DNA from: Mimachlamys varia | Lineage: Eukaryota > Mollusca > Bivalvia > Pectinida > Pectinidae | Reading direction: 5' to 3' | Assembly (NCBI GenBank): GCA_947623455.1 | Contig: OX392542.1 | Span: 7,137,625 to 7,201,624 of the forward strand | Length of the DNA stretch: 64,000 nt | Shown here: piece by piece, positions 1 to 48,165 of the stretch | Position numbering within the stretch: the stretch's first letter is position 1 | How the letters are laid out: each line of letters opens with the position of its first letter | The notes under the pieces: model-generated | The model's database searches: none | Seen by the model: the letters and a program-made list of their open reading frames with translations, nothing else | Told to the model about the DNA's origin: nothing | Translations under genes and position numbers: made by a program

Positions 1-1690
1 ATTTTGCATAAATGGTGACTCTGACCCTAAAGGGGCCAGAGGGGCGGGGCCCAATAGGGGAAATAGAGGTAATTCTTTAAATCTCTTCTTGTCAACAAGT
101 CCTGATTGGATTTTGACCAAATTTAGTCAGATACATCCTTTGGGGAAGGGGAACAGATTTTGCATAAATGGTGACTCGGACCCTAAAGGGGCCAGAGGGG
201 CGGGGCCCAAATATGGAAAATAGAGGTAATTCCTTTAAATCTCTTCTTGTCAAAAAGTCCTGATTGGATTTTGGCCAAATTTAGTCAGAAACATTGTTGG
301 GGGAAGGGGAACAGATTTTGCATAAATGGTGACACTGACACCCAAGGGGCCAGAGGGGCGGGGCCAAATAGTGAAAATAGAGGTAATTCCTTTTAATCTC
401 TTCTTGTCAAAAAGTCCTGATTGGATTTTGACCAAATAAGGTCAGAAACATCTTTTGGGGAAGAGGAACAGATTTTGCATAAATGGTGAATCGGACCCCA
501 AAGCTGCCAGAGGGGCGGGGCCCAATAAGGGAAATAGAGGTAATTCCTTTAAGTCTCTCTTGTCATAAAGTTATGAATAGATTTTGTTCAAATTTTGTCA
601 GAAACATCGTTGGGGGAAGGGGAACAGATTTTGCATAAATGGTGACTCTGACCCTAAAGGGGCCAGAGGGGCGGGGCCCAATAGGGGAAATAGAGGTAAT
701 TCTTTAAATCTCTTCTTGTCAAAAAGTCCTGATTGGATTTTGGCCAAATTAGTCAGAAACATTGTTGAGGGAAGGGGAACATATTTTGCATAAATGGTGA
801 CTCTGACCCTAAAGGGGCCAGAGGGGCGGGGCCCAATAGGGGAAATAGAGGTAATTCTTTAAATCTCTTCTTGTCAACAAGTCCTGATTGGATTTTGACC
901 AAATTTAGTCAGAAACATGGAAAATAGAGGTAATTCCTTTAAATCTCTTCTTGTCAAAAAGTCCTGATTGGATTTTGGCCAAATTTAGTCAGAAACATTG
1001 TTGGGGGAAGGGAAACAGATTTTGCATAAATGGTGACACTGACACCCAAGGGGCCAGAGGGGCGGGGCGAAATAGTGAAAATAGAGGTAATTCCTTTTAA
1101 TCTCTTCTTGTCAAAAAGTCCTGATTGGATTTTGACCAAATAAGGTCAGAAACATCTTTTGGGGAAGAGGAACAGATTTTGCATAAATGGTGAATCGGAC
1201 CCCAAAGCTGCCAGAGGGGCGGGGCCCAATAAGGGAAATAGAGGTAATTCCTTTAAGTCTCTCTTGTCATAAAGTTATGAATAGATTTTGTCCAAATTTG
1301 GTCAGAAACATCGTTGGGGGAAGGGGAACAGATTTTGCATAAATGGTGACTCTGAACCCTAAGGGCCCAGAGGCATGGGGCCAATTAGGGGAAATACAGG
1401 TAATTCTTTTAAAATCTCTTCTTGTCATAAAGTTATGAATGGATTTGGCCCAAATTTGGTGAGAAACATTCTTGGGGGAAGGGGAACAAATCTTGCATAA
1501 ATGGTGACTCTGACCCCTAAGGGGCTAGAGGGGCGTGGCCCATTAAGGGAAATAGAGGTAATTCCTTTAAATCTCTTCTTGTCATAAAGTTATGAATAGA
1601 TTTTGTCCAAATTTGGTCAGAAACATCGTTGGGGGAAGAGGAACATATTTTGCATAAATGGTGACTCTGACCCCTAAGGGGCTATTTTGG
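1..1690. repeat. Satellite array of ~156 bp units with a 704 bp higher-order duplication
   Basis: About ten tandem copies of a ~156 bp unit. The landmark AGAGGTAATT recurs near 65, 222, 379, 535, 691, 847, 926, 1083, 1239, 1396 and 1554, so the spacing is ~156 bp with one shortened unit at 847-926. Each unit also has TTTTGCATAAATGGTGA and GGCCAGAGGGGCGGGGC. The block from ~213 to ~660 is repeated almost base for base at ~917 to ~1364, a 704 bp offset that points to a recent multi-unit duplication. Related units lie at 35996-36340. Short open frames inside the array recur with the units and are not genes. The array probably continues left of the window. Confidence 0.93.
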
Positions 1691-6060: not shown

Positions 6061-6578
6061 ATGTTGTTCTTAATTTTTTCTCCTGCTCAGTTCTGAAACA
6101 TCTGTTTTGTGTTTTAAATTTACCATATTGGTGCCAGTTAAGGAATCTACACAATCAAATCTTGCCAGAGTAATTTTTCTTTTATTTATATCATTGCATT
6201 TGTGCCATATGTTCACAAAGCAGAGAAGTCTGAATTATTGTACAATTAATGATCTATGTTTCGATGTCACTAAATTTATTTTTCTTCTGAATACATATAA
6301 TCTGATTATTGGGTAGATCATTTGTATCTCTTTATACTAAAGATCTGTTTTTTTGATTTTGAGCATAAAATTGGGATTTTATTTAATTGCTCAAATTGAA
6401 GTTTGTTTGTCAACTTTTTCATTACGAATGGGTTAACAGTACTTATATATGTTAAAGGTTAATAATGTGAATCCTTTTTTTTTTAACTTGGAATTTTTAC
6501 GACAAGAAAGTATGGATGTTACAGTGATCAATGCAATATATCCAATTAAAATTGTAATACATGTACATAATTACATTA

Positions 6579-15068: not shown

Positions 15069-15206
15069 ACGATTCATCAGTTTGGTATGAATGATATATA
15101 CTGAGCATGTTTGTACACAAACAGGAATTGAAAACTTACTTTGCTAATTAAGTTAAATTAAGTTTTCAATTCCTGTTTGTGTACAAACAAACTCAGTATA
15201 TGTTTT
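15069..15206. repeat. Foldback repeat with 42 bp arms
   Basis: Left arm 15097-15138 and right arm 15159-15201 are inverted copies around a 20 nt loop; both hold CAGGAATTGAAAACTTA or its complement. The left flank (15072-15105, ATTCATCAGTTTGGTATGAA...) recurs as a perfect 34 bp inverted copy at 18316-18352. Part of the right arm recurs at 32786-32812 inside the decayed gypsy element. It behaves like a foldback MITE family. Confidence 0.75.
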
Positions 15207-20190: not shown

Positions 20191-23100
20191 CTATTTGACC
20201 AACTGAATCATAAAATATGCTAGAAGAAGCACTATGTATATTCCAGGGAAAGAAATGCTATGACCTTTGTTTGTCTCGCCGTCTGTTATGGAGGGCCACC
20301 ATGAATCATCGCCAACCCATTTACAATCCCAAGGTGCAAAGTCTGAAATATTTTGGAGTTTCTGAGGGCGCTTCATCCACTGTAACAGTTGCTGGTAATT
20401 AATAAAGTACACGTCATCATAGTAATGCAGTAATGTTAACAGAAAGTAGTCCAACGCCTGGAAGTTCTTTTCTTCCATCAGCCACGCGGGATGCATTGTG
20501 AAGAAAAGAGGGGATCGAGTTGTCGTGTAGTGACTGTGGAAGTTAGACCAGAAGAGTTGGAACGTCTCGTCAACTGTCGTTGGTCTACACGAGTCGGTAT
20601 AGAGACAACCGAACGTCCCTGCGGGGTTTTCAAGCATCTGTACAGGGAGCTCCCAGAATCCCTTGTACTTCCCGCGGGGACATGGGGGAATGTTACATTC
20701 ATAGTTCCAGCCAAAGTCAAGAGTGCTCGGCCAGACTCTACTGCTGTTTCCATCTTTTGTTGAAACTGTAAATGTTGAGTCATACTCGAAATTCTCTTCC
20801 TTAAGGATGGAAAACTGTTGGTCTCCCGAAGGTTGCAGAAACGGGCTTCGCCATCCCTTGATGTCTGTCAAAGGTATGCCAGATCTCTCAGACAGATATT
20901 TTCTCTGCTGGAGGATCTCGAAACTAAGCGTATCATAGGTGGCGAGTTTCCAGTAGGTGATCGGCACTCTGTGTGTGACGCTGTGCACCGCCACCTCCAT
21001 TCCTCGCCGATAGAGGGCGCGCACGCTGTCGTAGTTGGTGAAATTATCGGATACAAACATGGTCATGCTTATGGGGCAGCCATGCGGGTTAAGTCTATTT
21101 GGAGCAAACAGTTTATCGTACATGTCTTTAATATCGTCGGTAACAGCGTCGTCAAAAGAAAACAGAACCATCTGGGGAATATCGGATGATTTCGCGAAGT
21201 TGCCTGGGTCGATCGTGCCGCCACAGAAGCAGTCCGGTAGGACGCAGTTTACACCTTGGTTACAGACCTCACTCGACATCACTATGGGTAGTATGTGAAG
21301 GGACGCAAGCAAGATCACCACATTCTTCTTTGATGTCTGAAATTCATAACAAACAATGTGTAAAATTAGCACATGGCGTATTTCGTTCATGTATCATAAT
21401 ATTATTATGGAAAGAGGAACATTTTATCTCAACCTATCTTCCATTTCATCATAGATCTATAGTGCTTTTTATCATTCTTTCACACTGTCGCTATCTAATC
21501 TAGCGAATATATATATTGTGTTCTGTATGAAAGCCATGCCCACCCGTGTTATCATTATCATGACATCATAACTTCAATGTTAGATTCCTTTAAGGTAGTT
21601 ATTGTATCGATTTATGAAACAAGCTAAAACGATACATGTAAGATGACGTAGCACACACATATGCTGCACCTTTTAAATTTAGTAATAGATACAGTATGCC
21701 GAAAACATGAATTAAACTGCATCATACATCTGTTTCGTCCTCCTAGGACTCTTCAGTGATGCTAGGGGCCAAAAGGTGGGAATCCATTTCTAAACTAATG
21801 TAGAAGCAGGAAGGTCAGGTGCGTAAAACCCCTTTAATTTATGAATTTAGAAGTAAAATTAAACTAGTTCTGTATAATTTCAAATCGTGTACTACGAAAA
21901 TGTGTGTATTATGTACCGTGCCACCACTCAAATGAGATAGCATTTCCTTTGAAACTCAATAGTTCTAGGGAAATGTACAGTATTGAACAACTTTCAATCA
22001 GCTTTTACAATCGATATGAATGCAACCTAAAATGTGACAAACATGTGCAAGTGCGTTTTACGGATTCGTCACGTTCCTGATGACATTTATATCTACTATG
22101 CATGCCATACGAAAATAGATCAATGCTTTTAATTGTGCGGTGTTCATTTTATAGGCATACACTATTTCCAGTTCTTAAGTCATTATTTATTGATACATTG
22201 GTAATCAATTCGATAACTTAAACACAAAAATGCTTAAAAACTATTATCTTTATTCTAAAAAATGTAAATCAATTTATAAAATGTGTTTCTAATGTTGCAA
22301 AACTTCATATTGTGATTTGTATTCGTGTTGTTTGTAACCTTTATAATTATTGTGGTGATTTTAGGGAAACTATTCAAAACTATATAATTATGTTCTATCT
22401 AAGATGCCTCGGTTTATTTGAAGGAAGAACATACTATATATTGTATCAAGAGGTCATGAGGGATTGCTATCGATAACTCAATGTGATCATATTATTATCT
22501 TTGTGTTTCAGATTAAAACCAATCCGAAGCAAGTTTGATATAAGACTTTGATGTATAGTTTTACAATGGTTTTGAGACAATGAATTAAACAAGAGTACGG
22601 TGATCTATTTGAATTTACTTATGCGATCAGCAGATTTAAAAATGAAATAGTTACTATTAGATATTAAAAACTAATTAACAAAGAGAGAGAGAAAAATACT
22701 CAGTTAGCAAGTGTGTAAATGTTAAGATAATATACATTTTATTTTATGGTACATTTATGGGCTTCGGGATTTACTGTCTTTTAGCATACGCCAAGAACGG
22801 ATATTCTAAGCAGCAGTCTATTTATAGTTTATATCAGAGTTACAGATTATTTACTTTGACTGTTTAACAAAAGCTAGTGAAGGGGCTGGCGGAATCTTGG
22901 GCAAATTAAGTCTTGGATGTTACCTATATTTAAATAACTGGTGTCGTCGATGAAGCAGAAAACCTTTACTCTTCCGGAACACGTGGTCGTGTATTCATAT
23001 TCTGTCCCTAGTTTAATCGTTTTAGAATACGGATTATGGTTTTATTGATGCTTCGGTATTCTCAGTGAGCCAATGCCAAATGCTGGTCATTAGAAGGAGC

Positions 23101-24634
23101 TCAACATAAAAGCCTCCAAGTCTGATGTAAGACAAGGAAATATAATAGTATCACACGGGTTACAGTGGAAGATGCCGTAATACACAGCGACACACATGCT
23201 GCATCTAATAAAGTTAGTAATAGATACAGTATGCAGAAAAAATGAATTAAACTGCATCATACTGATACAGCCGTTTAGTCCTAGTTTTCTCTAGTTTTCG
23301 TCTGGAGAACTATAGGGTATGTTTCCCTTTAACGATTTAAAACTAACGGCACAGAAAATATTTTCCCGAAGACATTGCACAAGTGCCTACATCGGTACAT
23401 GCAGCACTCGTATTTGAAAACAAGTAATGCTAAATATACGCGAGTTTTTTTGTCTTTGATGAACAGAAGAGAATGATTGTTTAAAACCTTTATAAATTTC
23501 CCAATACATGTAAGAACAGCGTCGATAGGCATAATCTCCTTGATGAATGGCAGCGTAAACAAGAATGGCTCTTGATAAGGTAACATGTATGTAGCTAGAT
23601 ACAATTTCTATAAGCATTAACGTTAAAAAACTATTTTACAGCATGCAGTGTCCATGTATAGCGATGGAACTTGTAAAACACACGTTCAACACTTATCTAA
23701 GAGGACCTGAAACTCAGTACCGTATATTTAAGCGGAAACAATCGTCTTCCTCAGTAGCAGGGTTTGGTACTGATCAGATATATTTCCCTCATCATGATTA
23801 ATTCAACCTCATATCTCGAATTGCTTCAAAGATGACGTAACACACACATATGCTGCACCTCTTAATTTTAGTATTATATACAGTATGCCGAAAAAATGAA
23901 TTAAACTGTATCATACAACTGTTTCGTCCTCCTAGGACTCTTCAGTGATGCTAGGGGCCAAAAGGTAGGAATCCAAACTTTCTAAACTAATGTAGAAGCA
24001 GAAGGGTCAGGTGCGTAAAACCCATTTAAATTATGAATTTAGAAGTAAAATTAAAGTATTTCTGTATAATTTCAAATCGTGTACTATGAAAATGTGTATA
24101 TTACGTACCGTGCCACTACTGAAATGAGATTAATTGTGGCTATGAAGGCTCCAGCAAACTTAAACTCTGCTGAATTAGGGAATAACTATTTTCTCAAGTT
24201 TAACTATAGCCATATTTGTTTGTAAAAATGATGTTATAGAAGCCACCGACTGTATCACTGCAAACAGGTGCTTTCACTTTAAAGGCTGATGATTTGTTAA
24301 GAACGGTTGCAGTTAATCGTTGTTTACACAGGTGCCTGATAATTTGTTGCAGTTTGTTGTAGACCTAAACTATGATACAAAACTGTTTTGATTGAATCTG
24401 TCGATAAAAATGCACCGACAATCAACGCTCATTGTAGGGGATGGAGTTTTATCGACAGCTGATGTAAACTCAATAAACACCTACGTTTAGGACGAAAACA
24501 TATAAGATGACTCTGATTCTTCATACATGTTTAAGTAAAAACATTGTATTATCACAAATTTGTTTCCAAGGCATGTCGACAAAACAATTGCAATTCTGTG
24601 ATAAACGTAATAAAACAAATTCTCCTACCGTCAT
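20191..24634 (-). CDS. Polysaccharide (chitin) deacetylase-like protein, CE4 family
   Basis: Main exon 21336-20191 (382 codons with stop) follows an acceptor (ATTTCAG). The only fitting first exon I see is 24634-24629 (ATG ACG then GTAGGAG), joining in phase 0 to give 383 residues. CE4/NodB enzymes remove N-acetyl groups from chitin-type polymers. In the 383-residue numbering: a signal peptide (NVVILLASLHILPIVMSS, ~7-24), then a cysteine-rich lead ending LPDCFCGGT as in animal chitin deacetylases. Motif 1 is SFDDAV (Asp64/65), motif 2 is HSVTH (metal-ligand His120 and His124), motif 3 is RSPF (Arg165), then WELP (Trp231) and TMH (His284). All key CE4 residues are present, so it is probably active. 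The hydrophobic C-terminus (~364-379) suggests a membrane or GPI anchor. The upstream ATG in the same frame (21390) lies in the intron before the acceptor and is probably not used. Main exon: high confidence; the two-codon first exon is inference. Confidence 0.85.
21640..21938 (-). repeat. Hammerhead-bearing direct repeat, copy 1
   Basis: This ~299 bp segment is repeated in the same orientation at 23829-24130 with high similarity along its whole length, small indels aside. Both copies begin at AGATGACGTA and end at AAATGAGAT. Each carries a 44 nt hammerhead ribozyme on the minus strand. Such paired repeats are known from retrozymes and from the pseudo-LTRs of Penelope-like elements; which class this is cannot be settled here. 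Confidence 0.88.
21719..21762 (-). ncRNA. Hammerhead self-cleaving ribozyme, copy 1
   Basis: Read on the minus strand from 21762. Stem I strand GCATCA, then the core CTGAAGA (the C3-A9 pattern CUGANGA), stem II GTCCT-AGG-AGGAC closed by the canonical G-C pair, GAA (G12-A14), and stem III ACA-GA-TGT with A15.1-U16.1. H17 is A (cleavage triplet GUA), then the stem I partner TGATGC. Stem I pairs 6/6, stem II 5/5 and stem III 3/3, and every invariant core base is present. The very short stem III is typical of retrozyme and Penelope-type hammerheads, which often work as dimers. Predicted cleavage is between the complements of 21725 and 21724. Confidence 0.85.
23184..23262 (-). repeat. Partial, decayed third copy of the hammerhead repeat
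   Basis: It matches the start of the 300 bp repeat: CAC..CACATGCTGCA, TAGTAATAGATACAGTATGC and AATGAATTAAACTGCATCAT. It stops where the ribozyme would begin: the bases after ACTGCATCATA no longer fit the hammerhead core. It lies between the two full copies, in the same orientation. Confidence 0.75.
23829..24130 (-). repeat. Hammerhead-bearing direct repeat, copy 2
   Basis: Same orientation and extent as 21640-21938. The 1.9 kb between the two copies has no long open frame, so the pair would flank a non-coding or heavily decayed body. If 24634-24629 is exon 1, the whole assembly sits in intron 1 of the deacetylase gene, in sense. Confidence 0.88.
23908..23951 (-). ncRNA. Hammerhead self-cleaving ribozyme, copy 2
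   Basis: Same architecture as copy 1: core CTGAAGA, stem II GTCCT-AGG-AGGAC, GAA, stem III ACA-GT-TGT, H17 = A. The stem III loop differs (GT for GA) while its pairs are kept. Stem I has one mismatch (GCATCA against TGATAC). Predicted cleavage is between the complements of 23914 and 23913. Activity may be weaker than copy 1. Confidence 0.8.
24629..24634 (-). CDS. Proposed two-codon first coding exon of the deacetylase gene
   Basis: On the minus strand, AAAATGACG is followed at once by the donor GTAGGAG, phase 0, matching the phase 0 acceptor of the main exon at 21336. It turns TSKKNVVILL... into a normal signal peptide with a start Met. The upstream leader holds a short upstream ORF. Only position, phase and the sensible product support it; another first exon could exist. 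Confidence 0.45.
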
Positions 24635-28564: not shown

Positions 28565-29424
28565 TCTGAAAGTGAAATTAAAAGATTTGGCAATGATTTT
28601 GTTACCTATCAAAATGAGCCAAGATTTGATGCAAGAGGAAATGAAATTTCTAAGATGCTAGAGCTTATGAAGAAATGAAAGTGACACCAAAGCTAGACTC
28701 TGAACAAGAATTTATTCACTTGATGGCAGAAGCGGCTAACAACTACGATATAGAACAGAAGCGATACGGATCATGGTAACAAAAGGAGTGCAATTTCAGT
28801 GTCTAAGCTCCAACATTTTCCAAAAGTGTCCCAGTTTTCTGGATATGGAAAAGGAGTAGCATATGACATCTGGAGACAGGAAGTTCTGTGCTTAAAAGTG
28901 AAGTCCACAACCAGTCAACATTCCGCCAATCCATAAGTACTTCCTTGAAATGATCAGCGTTAAAGATAAGAATGGATACTTGTTCTGATTGGTCTGTAGA
29001 TGATATCTTACAGAAACTAAATGCAGTGTACGGGATTATACAGCCGAAGGATATTCTATTGAAGAAATTTTATAACGCTACTCAGGAATCTGGAGAAGAT
29101 GTAGCTACATGGAGTATCAGACTACAGGAACTCTATGATGAAGCCATGAACATGGGAACATCGTCAGTGACAGATGATGAAGTTCAGACACTACGAACCA
29201 TCTTCTGGAGTGGACTTCAACAGTCATTGAAATATGTCAACGGCCACCTATTTGAAAAACAAACAGAATATGAAGAATTGCTCAAAGCTGCCAGAAGGGC
29301 TGAGCAAGATAGGAAACACAGGAAATCAGAGACAAAAGCGATGACCAAGGCAGCTGTAGATGTAAAGAAAGAGAGTGATTTGTGTGCCACAGTGCATAGG
29401 ACGGAAGCGATGTTGAGTATATAG
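28565..29424 (+). pseudogene. Ty3/gypsy gag region (decayed)
   Basis: The readable frames are 28565-28678, 28677-28780, a middle piece with KLQHFPKVSQFSGYGKGV and YDIWRQEVLC (28800-28895), and the longest frame, 28972-29424. That frame has the capsid-like helical pattern of metazoan gypsy Gag (DILQKLNAVYG, FYNATQESGEDVATWSIRLQ, FWSGLQQSLK). Frame changes and stops separate the pieces, so it is not functional. A glutamine-rich linker (29425-29590) follows, and the expected zinc knuckle is missing because a LINE has been inserted there. No long terminal repeat is visible on the left. Confidence 0.82.
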
Positions 29425-33234: not shown

Positions 33235-33720
33235 TTGATCGTCTACAGGTGAAGAAGACAGGGTTACACAGAGTTACCAACACTGATGAGGGTGTCAAGG
33301 AATAAGTCGTTTTACCAAGCAGCTGTAGATCGACTGTTCTTAAGGCGAAATGCGTCTTACCAGCATTTCATTACGCACTATGGAATTCCAAAACGAATCC
33401 ATACTGGCAAAGGGAGGATTTTTGAAAGTAACATCATCAAAGAGCTTTGCAACATCACTGGTATGAACAAGACCAAGACAACACCTTACCACCCAATGGG
33501 AAACGGCGCAAGTGAGCGATTCAACATGATTTTGTTGGGAATGCTTGGAACGTTGGAGGATGTACATAGGAAAGACTGGAAAGCTCACACATCAAGCCTT
33601 GTACATGCTTACAACTGTACACAACAGGAAACAACAGGACGGAAACCTTACTTTTTAATGTTTGAGAGAGAGCCAAATTTACGAAAACAGCCTATAGACT
33701 TGCAAGAGAGCATTCCATGA
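33235..33720 (+). pseudogene. Ty3/gypsy integrase core fragment, catalytic Asp lost
   Basis: The frame 33286-33720 carries HFITHYGIPKRIHTGKGRIF, TPYHPMGNGASERFN and a LVHAYNCTQQETTG stretch, all typical of the integrase core. The second catalytic Asp, normally in HTDQG/HSDQG, is Gly here (HTGKG), while the Glu of ASERFN is present. The zinc-binding region before it is decayed. The element cannot make an active integrase. Confidence 0.87.
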
Positions 33721-33772
33721 AGGAAAACACGAGTCAAAAACCAGCTATGATCGTCGCATTAGTGGAGCTGTA

Positions 33773-34510
33773 TTGGAGGAGGAGACATTGCTTGTAAGGC
33801 TTGCTGTGTTTGCGGAAAAGCATAAACTGGCAAACAAATGGGAAGAAGATCCGTATATCGTCACTACTAGACCAAACAAGGATGTTCTAGTTCATGTAGT
33901 GAGGAAAGAATCGGGAGAAGGACGTCAACGTACACTACACAGAAATTTGCTTCTTCCTATTAGAATGATTGGGACCGATAACAACTCTTCTGCGCTAAGA
34001 AAACCTTACCGGCAACATGATCATCACTCAGACCGAAAACCGCCGAACTATCATCGGATACGCAGGATGTGGATGAGGATGAGTCCGAGTCTGCAATTTT
34101 AGTTGGATATACAACTGATACCTCATTGGTAGATTACGAGATTTTAGAGACGGATGACCCGGGCTACATCGAAGAGTTACTCTCTATAGATATCTGCCAA
34201 TGAAGGAGAACCCGAACAGGAAGATGAGCAGGGAGTGGAAGAAGCGGAACCGGAAATAGCAGAACTGGAAGTGGAATAGGAAATACAAGAACCTGAACCG
34301 GGAACTAGGGATTCCCCACGCCACGTTGCAGAGGAGAGACGCACTAGACCAGTGCGAAATCGGAAACCACCGACTTGGATGACTACTGGTGAGTTTGAAA
34401 TATCTCAGCAGCAAGGAGGTCGAGATTGGATGGTGCGAGCAATTTATCTGCGGGAATTATCTGACAAGGTGCCAGGTTGTAAGACGGATATTTGTTCGGC
34501 AATATGCCGT
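33773..34510 (+). pseudogene. Ty3/gypsy pol C-terminal region
   Basis: Frame 33773-34102 carries KHKLANKWEEDPYIV and RTLHRNLLLPI, the integrase C-terminal module of bivalve gypsy elements. Further frames to ~34500 are acidic (..EEAEPEIAELE..) and then basic with RPVRNRKPPTWM, also usual at the end of these polyproteins. No right LTR is recognisable. Confidence 0.78.
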
Positions 34511-34535: not shown

Positions 34536-35520
34536 CCATATTCAAGAATCATTTAATTTTATCTGGTTTGTATCCCCATATGAATCTAAAGAAAACTGAA
34601 TTAATATCACTTAGCAATTTTTTTACTTGGGTTTGGAAGTGAATACAGTAAATGTGTAATAAAAGGTAAAGCAAGTGTTTTAACCACCGTGATTTTTCCT
34701 AAAAGAGTCAAATTTCGTTAAGACCACATTCCTAGCAATTTCCTTATTTTGATAACTTTTCTTTAAAATTAAATTCAATGATTTCAGATAACCCCAAAGA
34801 AAGTTCTATGCCAAGAAGTTTGAACTGTTTTGCAGACCGGTCAAATTTATGTTCATGACATAAAATTTCTTCAGAATATTTCTTGTTTCCAATCTATATC
34901 AATCGACACTTATTAATGTTTAATTTAAGTCCAGATACTGTAGAAAATATATTGAACTCAGCTATAGTATTTGATAGTGACTTTGAAGAACCATCCAAGA
35001 ATAGAAAAGCATCATCTGCATATTGACCAAGCAAATATTCTCTATTGTGTATATATGAACACCTTTTATATATGGTGAAATGGGATCCCCTTGTCTACAT
35101 CCACGTTGTATATCAAAAAAGGAAGAAAAATATCCATTGTTAATAATTCGGCTTTTTGCATTATGATATAAGATATTTATCCACTTTATTAAAGATTCGC
35201 CAAAATTGAAAGATTTTAGAGATCTATGAATAAAAGCCCATTCTATCGAATCGAATGCCTTTTCAAAGTCAACAAGGAGTCGTAAACCAGACATGTTTTT
35301 TCTTCCAATTCATGCATCATATCATATAGTAATCTTGTATTATCACAAATAAATCTATTTCTCAGAAAGCCTTTATAATTGAGGGTAGTACATTTTTAAA
35401 TCGGTTTGCTATTGCAGAAGACGCAAGTTTATAGTCAGTATTGAGTAATGTTAAAGGTCTCCAGTTTTGTATAAATCTTCTATCTTTAGACTCCTTTGGA
35501 ATACATGTTATAATGCCTTG
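34536..35520 (-). pseudogene. LINE reverse-transcriptase fragment (L1-like), minus strand
   Basis: From the right on the minus strand: IPKESKDRRFIQNWRPLTLL (35400-35510), then LLVDFEKAFDSIEWAFIHRS (~35220-35280), INNGYFSSFFDIQRGCRQGD, QYADDAFLFLDGS (34985-35028, the catalytic YADD), and LKLNINKC with weaker similarity to ~34790. Domain order is right but frames shift, so it is a dead 5'- and 3'-truncated copy. It points the opposite way to the gypsy element next to it. Confidence 0.85.
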
Positions 35521-47548: not shown

Positions 47549-48165
47549 AATATTTCTCAATGAGACCAAGATGACAACCATAAAAGTTGCCCATAGTTCT
47601 GATCAACTTGCATCTCTCGAATCCTTGTGGTGTTAGCTTATTTGTCAGCAGTCGACATCGGTCGCGAAAATCACGATATTTAGAGTATGTCCTAGAATAT
47701 CGAATCAACTGCAACATGTAAACATCATATGTTGGAGAAGCAGGGATGTTACACAGGGACCTGAGAATTTGTTACAGCTAGTTAGATAAAAATGCCCCCT
47801 CAATGGTCATAAAAGCTATTTATGACCATTGAGGGGGCATTTTTATCGAAAATTGATCTTAACCCCCCAAATGTGTAAAATTACTCTAAACATCCTATTT
47901 TAGGTCCAAAACTAGCTGTAACAAATTCTCAGCTCCCTGTTGGATGTTACACTATCAAGGAATGGAAAGCTTACGATCGGAAAATTGAAATCATCACGTT
48001 TATCGTACATCACGTTTATCGTACAGCTTAGTATAAGCTGTTCATGTTGGTCGTACATTTTTGTAGTTTAAGTAGAGATCGACGTAAGCAGTTGATGTAG
48101 GAGAGTCTGTTGTGTCTTTTATTTCAAGTTCAGTCGGTTATACACTTGTATGATCGACGTGTTCA
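47549..48165 (-). pseudogene. Reverse-transcriptase C-terminal fragment, interrupted by a MITE
   Basis: Minus strand from the right: PTELEIKDTTDSPTSTAY (~48150-48090), YDKRDDFNFPIVSFPFLDS (~48012-47957), then the MITE 47754-47941. After it come NIPASPTYDVYMLQLIRYSR (~47748-47690) and YRDFRDRCRLLTNKLTPQGF to about LIEKY (47550). These motifs are the end of a reverse transcriptase common as 'uncharacterized protein' in bivalve, amphioxus and fish genomes. Its class (possibly Penelope-like) I cannot settle. In-frame stops and a small frame shift show it is dead. Relatives are at 28380-28560 and 57262-57475. Confidence 0.8.
47754..47941. mobile_element. Foldback MITE (hAT/Mutator-like) with target duplication
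   Basis: The ends CAGGGACCTGAGAATTTGTT and, on the other strand, CAGGGAGCTGAGAATTTGTT are inverted copies followed by ACAGCTAGTT. GGATGTTACA occurs at 47744-47753 and 47942-47951, a ~10 bp target duplication (two extra T at the right end). The centre is a perfect 29 bp hairpin (47785-47813 / 47819-47847, 5 nt loop) with CCCCCTCAATGG. The left half has lost ~95 bp that are still present in the right half and in the copy at 55056-55190. Confidence 0.85.

Follow-up and report, generated by a model that had tools for sequence, protein, structure and literature searches.

Type I hammerhead ribozymes are carried in metazoan genomes by non-LTR (long terminal repeat) retrozymes, which are described as non-coding repeats of ~150-450 bp with a GC content below 50% and high copy number (PMC7229834). 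A bivalve with such repeats is already known, since ~5,000 type I hammerheads in repeats of 350-390 bp are reported from the mussel Mytilus galloprovincialis (PMC7229834). In the published retrozyme cycle, the hammerheads cut the RNA, a host ligase circularises it, and a borrowed reverse transcriptase copies it (PMC7229834, PMC7761336, PMC4918200). Retrozyme RNAs are reported to be above 70% paired (PMC4918200), and the target-site duplications of metazoan retrozymes, where present, are longer than 4 bp (PMC7229834). Minimal type I hammerheads have also been described as scattered through the non-coding DNA of animals (PMC7761336), and for a Penelope-like element of Anolis it is reported that the unprocessed RNA is the main substrate in vitro and that reverse transcription starts at an internal site (PMC11167929). 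Here, we analyzed a 64,000-nucleotide stretch of the genome of the scallop Mimachlamys varia (GCA_947623455.1, contig OX392542.1, positions 7,137,625 to 7,201,624; the window), in which two hammerhead motifs lie upstream of a CE4 polysaccharide deacetylase gene. We consider it very probable that they are two independent, 5'-truncated insertions of a non-autonomous, retrozyme-like, non-coding retroelement of ~381 nt with thousands of hammerhead copies in the genome, which makes the scallop family a further bivalve case.

Both motifs are on the minus strand, at 21719-21762 and 23908-23951, within repeat copies called c1 and c2, respectively. As stated in the initial annotation, each has a complete type I core and three stems in the correct order, which we find both as a full-length match to the Rfam model RF00163 and with a strict descriptor (CTGANGA, a four-pair stem II, GAA, A15.1-U16.1 plus three stem III pairs, H17, and the four inner pairs of stem I). 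In c1, stems I, II, and III retain 6, 4, and 3 pairs, and in c2 they retain 5, 4, and 3. The finer points of that annotation also hold, namely, that stem II is identical between the copies, that the stem III loop is GA in one and GT in the other, and that c2 has a lone mismatch in stem I, which is C.A. Self-cleavage is predicted between 21725 and 21724 in c1 and between 23914 and 23913 in c2. The covariance-model search proposed as a check gave a divided answer: both motifs match model positions 1-45 of 45, but at 30.8 bits (c1) and 31.8 bits (c2) they are below the gathering score of 34. Their E-values are 5.8e-5 and 2.8e-5 when a 3-kb stretch is searched and 0.0012 and 0.0006 when the search takes in the entire window and all Rfam families. 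Since microRNA models also match the window weakly, with E-values from 0.00031 upward and all below their cut-offs, the hammerhead E-value alone is not decisive. The strict descriptor matches exactly two sites in the window and none in 300 dinucleotide shuffles of it.

Across the genome (975,302,275 bases in 71 contigs, the window being C16:7137625-7201624), the A7 form of the core, CTGAAGAGTCYN{4,30}GACGAAAC, has 2,459 + 2,673 = 5,132 exact matches and its reversed control none, and the T7 form (CTGATGA) has 122 matches, again with none in the control. These counts cover intact cores of the A7 and T7 forms. When five single-copy family loci were run through Rfam, one (L032, 34.3 bits) scored above the cut-off. 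A chance resemblance without any ribozyme would fit the low Rfam scores in the window and the more stable competing folds described below, but it leaves the empty shuffles, the thousands of genomic cores against an empty control, and the passing locus without explanation, and we regard it as extremely improbable. On these sequence comparisons, the two sites are confirmed as hammerhead motifs.

Both motifs are embedded in copies of an interspersed repeat of ~300-330 nt, all on the minus strand. With the 381-nt family monomer defined below as the nhmmer query, c2, the upstream copy on the transcript, spans 23830-24161 and monomer positions 48-380 (282.4 bits), and c1 spans 21641-21939 and positions 78-380 (266.5 bits). 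Between them is a third, decayed copy, c3, at 23170-23299, with monomer positions 259-380 and a ruined hammerhead (48.7 bits, E = 9.3e-16). The window copies are single units rather than head-to-tail ones, with a GC content of 0.368 and 0.341. Aligned as a pair (21640-21938 and 23829-24130), c1 and c2 are 92.4% identical over 302 columns, differing by 20 substitutions and 3 gap columns, and two of the differences fall inside the 44-nt hammerhead. Because they start at different 5' positions, share the 3' end of the family, have no common flanks that we could find, and enclose the decayed c3, they are most likely two independent insertions and not two ends of one element. An end of c3 exactly at the ribozyme cut site, suggested by a homology of c3 that started 3 nt before the cut when it was compared with c1 and c2 alone, was rejected, as the family profile shows c3 continuing through the decayed hammerhead. 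Each copy also has two A-box-like matches to RNA polymerase III promoter boxes, with two mismatches, and c2 has one B-box-like match with two mismatches.

The anatomy of the family was examined in 68 A7 loci (30 minus 2 duplicates, plus 40) taken from the first 100 matches listed, and eight T7 loci were inspected as well. Many copies have in common a further ~80 nt ahead of position 1 of the window repeat, and at several loci this stretch adjoins the end of a preceding copy. The monomer so defined is 381 nt long, with a GC content of 0.383, the hammerhead at 258-301, and the predicted cut after 295. The 68 loci and the window together give 75 copy blocks, 59 of them in a single piece, 15 in two pieces, and 1 in four pieces. 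They have a common 3' end, with 61 of 75 blocks stopping at monomer positions 377-380, and ragged 5' ends. In the sampled loci, the copies close with CATCTT, after which comes either the next unit or unrelated sequence. Thirteen of the 15 two-piece blocks (L015, L020, L021, L027, L028, L030, L045, L057, L060, L063, L067, L070, and L079) are head-to-tail, their second piece starting from monomer positions 2-8 at most 17 nt after the first, which gives a period of ~381 nt; the other two are L012, whose second piece starts from position 173, and L055, which has an internal gap. The four-piece block (L058) includes one head-to-tail junction, and L021 has two hammerheads 380 nt apart. In these alignments, a 3' end common to most copies, 5' ends that vary, and a head-to-tail period of ~381 nt together make up the anatomy of a non-LTR retrozyme. 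The family further shares with non-LTR retrozymes the type I hammerhead, a repeat of this length (381 nt), a GC content below 50%, the absence of coding capacity, high copy number, and head-to-tail copies. No covariation was found among 35 aligned copies (29 distinct), in which the core columns are mostly fixed by the search patterns and only stems I and III are informative; this indicates that the copies decay once inserted. At a separate locus (L082, G000:C8:35111001-35121000), two identical hammerhead-like motifs lie 6,247 bp apart, and the further matches at 6,247 and 13,721 bp suggest a large tandem duplication.

This copy structure also bears on the possibility that c1 and c2 represent the two ends of one ~2.5-kb element, as its terminal direct repeats (LTRs or pseudo-LTRs), for example of a Penelope-like element or a plant-style LTR retrozyme, with a body of 1.9 kb between them. 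The two have the same orientation and high identity and are 2.19 kb apart, and Penelope-like elements are described with minimal type I hammerheads in their pseudo-LTRs (PMC7761336, PMC6155905). However, no Pfam domain, including reverse transcriptase and GIY-YIG, reaches its cut-off in the six-frame translation of 21500-24500, where the only match listed, a zinc ribbon, scores 15.5 bits and its cut-off is 24. Moreover, the 5' ends of c1 and c2 are unlike and their outer flanks do not match, the older, decayed c3 would lie inside the element, and sampled family copies end at CATCTT, running into unrelated sequence or the next unit. The missing domain, the different starts, and the unshared flanks lead us to disfavor a single element as improbable.

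If c1 and c2 are instead retrozyme-like insertions, the family anatomy suggests how they could have arisen. Head-to-tail copies would be transcribed by the host, their hammerheads would cut the RNA into ~381-nt monomers, and the monomers would be circularised. A reverse transcriptase borrowed from another element, perhaps a Penelope-like element or a long interspersed nuclear element, may then begin at the fixed CATCTT end and proceed along a circular or multimeric template until it dissociates. The resulting insertions would have one common 3' end and ragged 5' ends, and some would be longer than one unit. The fixed 3' end of the DNA copies is ~85 nt beyond the predicted cut. If the template were a linear monomer cut at the hammerhead, reverse transcription from that end would run out after ~85 nt; copies that cross the hammerhead and the unit junctions thus point to a circular or uncut multimeric template. 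Since the sample was selected for an intact core, the frequency of 85-nt copies cannot be judged from it. The copy anatomy of this family, therefore, bears on an open question of the retrozyme cycle, that of the template of reverse transcription.

Several observations weigh against a retrozyme-like origin. The sampled A7 loci were selected for an intact core and are all on one contig (C1). No target-site duplication was found at c1, c2, or c3, and across 61 blocks the longest words common to both flanks are barely above those of permuted flanks, save for 13 nt in L026. The natural 380-nt monomer of L021 is 59% paired and not unusually structured (z = -0.65; z = -1.58, -0.07, and -0.03 for other hammerhead pairs), and the window units are 55-60% paired, so that neither shows the pairing above 70% reported for retrozymes. 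This is a reported rather than a defining trait, and the lower self-pairing is the reason why we term the element retrozyme-like. As for the ribozymes themselves, the hammerhead folds have energies of -8.4 and -5.3 kcal/mol versus computed minima of -13.6 and -10.6 kcal/mol for the two monomers, and in whole-copy folding stem I has a probability of ~0.45 in c1 and 0.0 in c2. Such fold computations, the dimer energy below included, are weak evidence, because the folding program cannot make a two-base loop and ignores contacts within the core. In L026, the 13-nt word is exact on both sides and, by eye, lies within a longer similar stretch.

Downstream of both hammerheads, and on the same strand, lies the open reading frame of the CE4 polysaccharide deacetylase (20191-21393, minus strand; PF01522 at 23.6 bits versus a cut-off of 23.1). 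Its best protein matches are from scallops, at 87% for Mizuhopecten yessoensis, 83% for Ylistrum balloti, and 83% for Argopecten irradians, and these homologues begin with MATSMKKV, MATFLKKV, and MTGPSTKM, respectively. The residues EFQ|TSKKN of the frame align with the starts MATSMKKV and MATFLKKV, and a 3' splice-site-like TTTCAG ending at 21337 sits at this boundary; the CE4 exon probably begins at 21336, directly after it. The initial annotation had placed both hammerheads in sense in the first intron of this gene, with ATGACG followed by GTAGGA at 24634-24629 (minus strand) as the candidate coding part of exon 1. The sense orientation stands. In the 6 kb upstream of CE4, ATGACG|GTAGGA is the sole Met-Ala/Thr codon pair followed by GTR, among five Met-x|GTR sites, and together with the homologue starts and TTTCAG this makes the location of both hammerheads within the first intron plausible. 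Against it, the frame runs uninterrupted to 21393 and has its own ATG, so that the evidence for intron 1 is weak. The window copies are probably passive in this non-coding DNA, likely CE4 intron 1, where they could possibly cut the pre-mRNA.

The pair could also be a functional intronic device. In this reading, CE4 pre-mRNA is cleaved by both ribozymes, which perhaps act together as a cis dimer via their near-palindromic stems III, and the 2,189-nt RNA set free may then form a circle. Both hammerheads are in sense in a plausible intron, both cores are intact though the copies differ by 7.6%, the stem III octamers of c1 (ACAGATGT) and c2 (ACAGTTGT) can pair with each other, and a mammalian precedent for first-intron hammerheads has been reported (PMC3088659). 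We nevertheless consider such a device very unlikely, with thousands of other family copies in the genome and no apparent conservation in place, as the 44 nt of the hammerhead have 2 differences and the 302 columns of the repeat have 23. For the c2/c1 dimer, the computed hammerhead fold reaches -15.9 kcal/mol, well short of the minimum of -30.1 kcal/mol. The RNA between the predicted cuts folds as shuffled sequence does, with a circular minimum free energy of -457.7 versus -450.7 +/- 11.4 for the shuffles (z = -0.62; 11 of 39 shuffles as low or lower). The cut-to-cut distance of 2,189 nt given at the outset is thus correct, but a functional circle is unsupported, given the ordinary fold and the lack of any Pfam domain at cut-off. 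Nor is the pair special to this intron, since the motifs belong to a family with thousands of copies, differ in their 5' ends, and have the family 3' end. The family-wide copy data instead point to the intronic pair as a by-product of mobility. Its intronic setting, presented as undescribed for a sense pair in a CE4 gene, has precedents as well: in C10orf118, a hammerhead is published as lying ahead of the start codon in intron 1 (PMC3088659). A perfect palindrome, ACAGCTGT, is the stem III octamer in 47 of the 71 hammerheads with a five-base loop II from the 68 loci and the window (50 of the 71 being complete by the rule applied), and palindromic stems III have been noted earlier and interpreted as a sign of dimer action (PMC3088659).

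In two places, the hammerhead itself forms a tandem array. One array (L041:1664-2671; G000:C3:14920000-14928000) has 22.4 copies of 45 nt with 97% matching and 22 hammerhead cores spaced exactly 45 nt apart, and the other (L083:2319-2473; G000:C10:37196001-37201000) has 3.4 copies of 45 nt, with about three cores. The units read as type I hammerheads, and four of those in L041 exceed the Rfam type I cut-off with 34.2-34.4 bits. At the left edge of this array, the type III cut-off is also passed (50.9 versus 48.5 bits); read as type III, the unit junction there has an AAA loop capping stem I, and its stem III, an 8-nt palindrome, is shared with the neighboring unit. Family sequence is present on both sides of the L083 array, and the L041 array runs into the family tail at its right end. 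We tentatively propose, as a possibility rather than an expectation, that the family hammerhead has become a repeat unit itself, a self-cutting minisatellite whose transcript would fall into 45-nt RNAs or mini-circles and whose array could have been made by reverse transcription around a circle. Unequal exchange or slippage, without any action of the ribozyme, could also produce such arrays. If active, they would be, to our knowledge, the smallest self-cutting satellites. Nothing relevant to hammerhead minisatellite or satellite tandem arrays was found in the literature searched, and the 45-nt unit is far below the 150-450-bp retrozyme units described (PMC7229834).

Elsewhere in the window are retrotransposon pieces at 28954-29421 (plus), 33253-34102 (plus), and 34965-35309 (minus), with one PNMA/gag-like match and one RVT_1 match among them; by eye, the frames at 33253-34102 resemble an integrase, and Pfam has no match for the first of them. 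The hairpins at 15098-15196 and 47781-47851, which have sub-threshold matches to microRNA models on one or both strands, are probably inverted-repeat elements, and at the left edge of the window (1-1682) a unit of 156-157 bp is repeated in tandem. Beyond this genome, specific hammerhead patterns found no relatives in viral and prokaryotic contigs. A loose pattern picked up hammerhead-like motifs in two viral contigs (L001:10431-10462, plus; L002:11526-11556, minus), which are below the Rfam cut-off and, judged by eye, lie between or beside reading frames and are unrelated in sequence outside the motif.

No earlier report of this family in a scallop, bivalve, or mollusc was found among titles and the openings of abstracts, a search in which subscription literature is thinly covered. 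The scallop joins the animals in which a large, retrozyme-like family of hammerheads is present, with a copy anatomy of a fixed 3' end, ragged 5' ends, and copies longer than one unit but short of the next. Compared with the intronic amniote hammerheads of RECK and C10orf118 (PMC3088659, PMC6155905), the scallop pair is alike in being of type I, in sense, and plausibly intronic, and those hammerheads are likewise thought to be repeat-derived. They are described as conserved across species, whereas the scallop pair belongs to a high-copy repeat and shows no sign of having been conserved at its position. With Penelope-like elements and Terminons (PMC7761336, PMC11167929), the family shares the minimal type I hammerhead, a weak stem III, and partial tandem copies, as far as these are described there, but the scallop unit is non-coding and only ~381 nt long, and no reverse transcriptase or GIY-YIG frame lies between or beside the window copies. 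The closest likeness, by description and not by sequence, is to the retrozymes of the mussel and other metazoans (PMC7229834), in the type I hammerhead without clear contacts between loops 1 and 2, the similar length of a non-coding monomer, the low GC content, the head-to-tail copies, the thousands of copies, and the bivalve host. It differs from metazoan retrozymes as described in that 59 of 75 blocks are single-piece with ragged 5' ends and in that the L021 monomer is not highly self-paired.

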